DNA from: Methanocaldococcus fervens AG86
GTDB taxonomy: Archaea > AGJL01 > Methanococci > Methanococcales > Methanocaldococcaceae
Length of the DNA: 64,000 nucleotides
Assembly: GCF_000023985.1 (NCBI RefSeq)
Contig: NC_013156.1
Coordinates: forward strand, 608,363 to 672,362
Direction of reading: 5' to 3'
The notes beneath the pieces were generated by a model. It did no database searches, was not told where the DNA came from, and saw only the letters and a program-made list of their open reading frames with translations. This document shows, piece by piece, positions 37,673 through 38,245 of this stretch. Each line of letters opens with the position of its first letter. Positions within the stretch are counted from its first letter, which is position 1. The translations under genes and the position numbers were made by a program.

Positions 37673-37792
37673 GTTTTTACCTCCTTATTCATTATGGATT
37701 TGATTTTAACAGCATGAAGTTACAGATGTTAGATTCAAAATTTGTTTATAGAGAAGGTGGCTACTAATAAATAGAAACCTATATATTACTTT

Positions 37793-37804
37793 AACGGTTG
37801 GGGC
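37793..37804 (+). repeat. 12-bp inverted repeat around rnp1, arm 1
   Basis: AACGGTTGGGGC on the plus strand, the exact reverse complement of 38154-38165. In the operon mRNA it lies 59 nt after the rnp1 stop and directly before the TATA-like sequence of rps17. The two arms could pair in RNA across the rnp1 gene, or both could be sites for the same DNA-binding protein. Confidence 0.5.
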
Positions 37805-37862
37805 AAAAATAAGGCTTTTCAAAATATTGTTAAGTTTATGGCAACATTAAGCTTAAAAACAC

Positions 37863-38150
37863 TTAATAGGGATAGAGTATCTTTATCTTTCTTTTTAATC
37901 GCTCCTCTGGCCTCCCTATTAGTAATCTTCCGTCAACCTTCACTTTGCATCCCTTTAGTTGGAAAAGAAATACTGCAACGTCCTTTGGAATCCTCACTTC
38001 TTTTCCGTCCTCTTTCTCTATCACTAGAGTATTCCTCGTCTCATCTACTACTTTTCCTTTAATCCCTATCATCGCTTTGTTCTTTGCTTCAACGATCTCT
38101 ACTTTAAGCCCTATAAGCTCATGCCTAAGAATATTATGAGGAGTGATCAT
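37863..38150 (-). CDS. rnp1: Ribonuclease P protein component 1 (Rpp29/Pop4)
   Basis: A 95-residue Sm-like barrel protein of archaeal RNase P that pairs with Rpp21. 'MITPHNILRHELIGLKVEIV' and 'GIKGKVVDETRNTLVIEKED' are typical, ending 'GRLLIGRPEERLKRKIKILY'. The ATG is preceded by TTGGGGCATC, a poor match to the GGTGAT sites used elsewhere in this operon, and this GGGGC is part of a 12-bp repeat and can pair with an adjacent CCCC. Translation control is therefore plausible. Confidence 0.95.
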   Translation of the reverse strand: MITPHNILRHELIGLKVEIVEAKNKAMIGIKGKVVDETRNTLVIEKEDGKEVRIPKDVAVFLFQLKGCKVKVDGRLLIGRPEERLKRKIKILYPY

Positions 38151-38153
38151 GAT

Positions 38154-38165
38154 GCCCCAACCGTT
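38154..38165 (-). repeat. 12-bp inverted repeat around rnp1, arm 2 (overlaps its ribosome binding region)
   Basis: On the minus strand reads AACGGTTGGGGC, ending 3 nt before the rnp1 ATG. It is the reverse complement of arm 1 when both are read on the same strand, giving a possible 12-pair helix with the sequence downstream of rnp1 in the same transcript. Confidence 0.5.
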
Positions 38166-38169
38166 TTAC

Positions 38170-38205
38170 GGGGACGGGGTGTGCCGTTTCGGCATCCGCG
38201 TCCCC
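38170..38205 (-). ncRNA. GC-rich structured RNA in the rnp1 leader
   Basis: On the minus strand GGGGACG pairs with CGTCCCC (7 bp). After a mismatch, two more pairs and a bulge, an apical stem TGCCG-AAA-CGGCA closes it. GC content is about 70 percent in an AT-rich genome, a known hallmark of structured RNA in Methanocaldococcus. Its 3' CCCC could instead pair with the GGGG next to the rnp1 start, so two exclusive folds exist. It lies in the 95-nt gap between aIF1 and rnp1. No known RNA family was recognised. Confidence 0.55.
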
Positions 38206-38245
38206 TTTTTATTTCCAAAATTTCAAAAATAATAATTAAATTAAA

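Follow-up and report, generated by a model that had tools for sequence, protein, structure and literature searches.

A leader hairpin and a long-range helix around the ribosome-binding site of rnp1 in Methanococcales: a candidate 5'/3'-UTR lock on RNase P protein synthesis

The RNase P protein Rpp29 is presumably required in lesser amounts than ribosomal proteins. How, then, is its output set when its gene lies among theirs? The window (the whole 64-kb stretch of DNA that was analysed, from a genome of 1.51 Mb in two contigs) carries rps3, rpl29, a SUI1-family gene (sui1), rnp1 and rps17 consecutively on its minus strand, with families assigned by profile match. Here, rnp1 (37863..38150, minus strand) encodes RNase P protein component 1 (Rpp29/p29; 95 aa; PF01868, E 9e-27; NF046110 above cut-off). 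Between the sui1 stop and the rps17 start lies every element named in an earlier note on this DNA: a GC-rich hairpin, a GGGG at the rnp1 start and, after the stop, a perfect 12-nt complement, each of which lies where that note had placed it. Its description of the rnp1 ribosome-binding site as weak is also borne out. Pairing with the 16S tail is worth -5.5 kcal/mol, as compared to -7.1 to -11.5 for 12 neighbouring genes, making this site the weakest of the 13 cluster genes checked.

Complementary arms on either side of the reading frame

The window contains AACGGTTGGGGC at two places and no others, arranged as an inverted repeat (37793-37804, plus strand; 38154-38165, minus strand). Read along the rnp1 message, these copies are a 5' arm, AACGGUUGGGGC (38154..38165, minus strand), which includes the ribosome-binding GGGG, and its exact complement, the 3' arm GCCCCAACCGUU (37793..37804, minus strand), located 58 nt beyond the stop. 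When complementarity between start region and 3' region was scored for the 91 window ORFs of at least 90 aa, rnp1 ranked top with a score of 34; the next gene scored 25 and the median was 14.5. In the ten arm-bearing Methanocaldococcus-type loci that were each tested against 500 shuffles, the real match exceeds every shuffle (p = 0.002 each, computed without correction for relatedness among genomes); the 5-6 bp arms found in mesophiles do not reach significance one by one.

Paired arms occur in 27 genomes: 24 loci were anchored on the G-run, and L007, L028 and G006 complete the set. The helix is a perfect 10-15 bp in Methanocaldococcus and 5-6 bp in Methanococcus. G016 and G024 pair UGGUGGGG with CCCCACCA, while the remaining Methanococcaceae pair GGGGAC with GUCCCC or GGGAC with GUCCC; in the anchored arm columns, G and C counts agree without exception. 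The earlier note had proposed arm covariation across Methanocaldococcus as a check, and compensatory changes are indeed found across genera: A-U becomes U-A (G004/G011), G016/G024 have the arm pair UGGUGGGG/CCCCACCA, and C-G becomes A-U after the G-run. Swapping whole 3' arms between species, again without correction for relatedness, reached the observed pairing in 0 of 2000 trials (123 versus a mean of 104.5 and a maximum of 122), a result to be taken as a guide rather than a probability because the species are related.

The G-run ends 1-6 nt upstream of the rnp1 start codon, and pairing of the arms would enclose the reading frame in a loop of ~300-480 nt. A U-rich stretch often lies before the 3' arm and could end the transcript ahead of it, and a TATA-like box comes after that arm; both speak against a function of the helix in the rnp1 message. 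Termination within operons is described as common in M. maripaludis (PMC10450193), in a paper whose main text contains nothing on rnp1.

A hairpin with an invariant core in the leader

The second structure lies immediately 5' of rnp1. Among rnp1 loci gathered from the source genome and its relatives, this hairpin is present in 30 of 36 Methanococcales genomes and maps in the window to 38169..38206 (minus strand), where a covariation model built from distant sequences (R1) finds it at 28 bits. Its core, 5'-GGAU ... ACACCC-3' (38194-38197 and 38177-38182, minus strand), shows no variation in 25 distinct sequences. Around this core the stem changes on both sides, at 9 of 11 pairs in the lower helix and 2 of 4 in the upper helix, and simple parsimony on a tree of the Sui1, Rnp1 and S17 proteins counts ~25 such double-sided changes. 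The hairpin columns are paired in 91.5% of cells, versus 27-55% in slid controls, and the covariation signal is lost when partners are slid by 1-3 columns. The covariation score is 0.472 versus 0.178 for shuffles (sd 0.020) in an alignment fitted to the model; when the more distant sequences are aligned by themselves with MAFFT, the score is 0.549 versus 0.222 (sd 0.034), which is the cleaner figure because the former alignment was fitted. In each hairpin-bearing genome the top match of the model is the site before rnp1, with no second copy of comparable strength. Most Methanocaldococcus genomes have one additional unpaired base in the lower stem beside the core. The stability of the hairpin alone is unremarkable (z -1.85), and the case for it rests on conservation.

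Scans of five outgroup genomes (under strict filters) and of further archaeal rnp1 loci did not find the element, which seems restricted to Methanococcales. No Rfam 15 family matched it at the gathering threshold (best 20.8 bits against a threshold of 60). Riboswitch families likewise stayed below threshold, and the hairpin, having 15 bp and a single small loop, is small for an aptamer. A short upstream reading frame was considered as well: many species have an AUG in the core (GGAUGCC), which is not conserved because Methanococcus and G006 read GGAUAC.

The arms are missing jointly in 9 of 36 genomes, and neither is missing alone in these counts. Three of the nine (G002, G003 and G010) have the hairpin; the other six, which form one clade (G014, G017, G027, G029, G032 and G034), lack it, and in them rnp1 begins a few bases from the sui1 stop, an arrangement that suggests a shift to coupled translation. 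On the protein tree, there are at least two joint changes of state for the arms and one for the hairpin. The persistence of the hairpin where the arms have been lost argues that it has a separate role.

Folding of the leader, frame and 3' arm as one RNA, at temperatures up to 60 °C and with energy models that are approximate for RNAs of 400 nt, places both structures of the source genome in a single fold (P 0.96 for the hairpin and 0.98 for the helix). Over 13 species at 37 °C, the arm helix has a mean pair probability of 0.94-1.00 in loci of the Methanocaldococcus type or the G016/G024 type, the remainder giving 0.60-1.00. The G-run of the source genome is unpaired at 42% without the 3' arm and at 0% with it. 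For most of the species folded, pairing of the G-run depends on including the 3' arm; in L004 the G-run is mostly paired elsewhere even without that arm. The hairpin is weakly predicted in L030 and L038. Both structures are almost certainly real, and they are predicted to coexist, with the helix burying the ribosome-binding site.

A probable lock on the ribosome-binding site and its alternatives

The best explanation of this architecture has two parts. The leader hairpin would dock a candidate factor, most likely a protein, at its invariant internal loop, and the G-run would pair with the C-rich arm past the stop, hiding the ribosome-binding site. From the time the 3' arm is transcribed, further ribosomes would load poorly, and Rpp29 would be made at a low rate despite the place of rnp1 among ribosomal-protein genes; a factor bound at the hairpin would tune this lock. 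That a 5'/3'-UTR lock holds Rpp29 translation low within a highly expressed ribosomal-protein cluster is, on balance, probable. For the hairpin, an invariant loop within a variable stem suggests a bound protein, and the GGA/CACCC internal loop has the look of a specific docking site, with a protein as its likeliest partner; that the hairpin is a regulated switch is a more tentative proposal and less likely than not. The lowering of translation in cells, the binding of a factor by the hairpin and the tuning of the lock by that factor are all things that we infer. It is rather unlikely that the two parts are coupled such that a protein-sensing hairpin and the lock set RNase P protein output against ribosomal-protein output; if they are, this would be a novel type of archaeal regulatory RNA, and tRNA maturation and ribosome supply would be balanced at one message.

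The same structures could be read in other ways. The earlier note had proposed a switch among three mutually exclusive pairings, in which partners are swapped among the 3' CCCC of the hairpin, the GGGG and the 3' arm. The letters permit this in the main Methanocaldococcus group, and when the 3' arm is omitted from the fold L013 and L038 show 26-28% pairing of a hairpin strand with the G-run. In the source genome, however, the CCCC:GGGG pairing has a probability of 0.000-0.001 while helix and hairpin coexist, and the CCCC is missing in most Methanococcaceae. A three-way switch is not supported because this pairing is near zero in probability and is not conserved, and it is very improbable. What stands of the note's case for translational control is structured RNA around the ribosome-binding site, for which order-wide conservation and covariation provide strong support. 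The helix and hairpin might instead mark RNA processing, which would free or protect the rnp1 message out of a longer transcript. Processing stems bracket rRNAs, and the paired arms enclose exactly one gene, but neither the perfect 10-15 bp helix of Methanocaldococcus nor the 5-6 bp helix of Methanococcus contains a bulge-helix-bulge, and the ribosome-binding G-run is the sole part that is always paired; processing is quite unlikely. The repeat might also act as DNA, either as the site of a regulator (a known one would, by the note, refute its proposal) or as part of the rps17 promoter. Consistent with this, the 3' copy in Methanocaldococcus abuts a TATA-like box (AGTAATATATAGG, about 37778-37790, minus strand, read by eye), a possible rps17 promoter retained by most Methanocaldococcus relatives, and G002 retains AACCGTTAAAGTTATATAT having lost GCCCC. 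Against it, complementarity is kept between genera though the sequence differs, the arm of G007 has no TATA box next to it, and no promoter is evident at the 5' copy, leaving a DNA site disfavoured and very improbable.

A further alternative is feedback, acting alone or by stabilizing the lock, with which it is compatible and to which it would add a sensor. By analogy with the bacterial spc operon, an excess of a cluster ribosomal protein such as S8, or of Rpp29 itself, would bind the core and turn rnp1 translation off, a proposal that is possible but somewhat unlikely. Specific recognition is suggested by the constancy of the internal loop in a stem that otherwise varies, and the S8 gene is located in the same cluster as rnp1. 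S8 is a tempting candidate since the corresponding bacterial operon, spc, is under its control (PMC4176348) and since the loops are loosely alike: the spc S8 leader and the rnp1 hairpin each have a small, asymmetric internal loop in the stem, and in the rnp1 core a U-A pair is followed by an invariant A beside C. Unlike that leader, it lacks the defining base triple and the loop size. The triple (G597-C643)-U641 is not formed by the letters, the positions equivalent to 597/641/643 being A/C/C as compared to G/U/C in 16S helix 21 of the source genome, and the invariant A, set against A642 of the S8 site, lies in a loop of 3/5 or 4/5 rather than 3/4. Mimicry of 16S, 23S or RNase P RNA was also searched for, and none was found above chance; ribosomal-protein leaders often have no obvious rRNA similarity, according to the account in PMC2864571. 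The closest rRNA match to the core is in the 16S decoding region (L032:2810-2854, GAAUGC...UGCACACACC; 12.6 bits, E 0.1), where the lower stem is broken, and this resemblance is probably a coincidence.

L7Ae, which the earlier note had listed as a candidate regulator, is unlikely because the core is without kink-turn G.A pairs. The archaeal L7Ae autoregulatory leader (PMC5539422) is a parallel in that translation of an RNP protein is governed there by a protein-binding RNA motif of the 5' UTR, a role for which the rnp1 hairpin is a candidate. The L7Ae leader, however, carries a kink-turn, which requires a 3-nt bulge followed by tandem sheared G.A pairs; the rnp1 core GGAU/ACACCC has CC after its bulged side.

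Relation to known elements and neighbouring features

To our knowledge, archaea offer few examples of cis-regulatory RNA, and in no group of organisms is it common for a conserved 5'/3'-UTR lock to close off a ribosome-binding site. The open-licence literature searched holds no description of the rnp1 leader and no report of such a lock in archaea, making the hairpin apparently undescribed. If confirmed, the lock proposed here would be order-wide and covariation-supported, including in the genetically tractable Methanococcus, and it would explain a low level of an RNase P subunit inside a ribosomal-protein cluster.

The closest parallel in mechanism is the icaR mRNA of Staphylococcus aureus, in which a CCCC motif of the 3' UTR has been proven to repress by pairing with the SD (PMC3868564). 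In both cases, the G-rich region that binds the ribosome has a C-rich partner in the 3' UTR of its own message: UCCCCUG in icaR, where ribosome loading is blocked, and GCCCC or GUCCC(C), opposite GGGGC or GGG(G)AC, in rnp1, where a 3'-UTR complement to the SD region is kept by compensatory change. The two differ in gene and domain of life, and the rnp1 lock is not a homologue. The icaR pairing feeds RNase III cleavage, whereas rnp1 adds a covarying leader hairpin; the former pairing was shown by experiment and the latter is supported by conservation. A 3'-UTR structure has also been proposed for control of a ribosomal-protein gene in the L17 downstream element, which, as far as the account in PMC2864571 extends, is local and bacterial, with no described pairing to a start region.

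Several smaller features accompany these elements. Methanococcaceae leaders end in GGGUAGGG(G)ACACCC-AUG (for example, L034:975-988), forming a mini-hairpin with the G-run in its loop. Its strands (GGGU...ACACCC before the AUG) resemble the main core (GGRU/ACACCC); this is possibly a second core site, or else chance or a mere 4-bp stem beside the arm. In the window, the TATA-like box after the 3' arm suggests a second promoter, which would divide the ribosomal-protein cluster between rnp1 and rps17. In three Methanococcaceae loci (L022, L026 and L030), TATA-like boxes of the TTTATATA type are located ~75-110 nt upstream of the hairpin, in a longer sui1-rnp1 gap, and rnp1 may therefore be its own transcription unit there.
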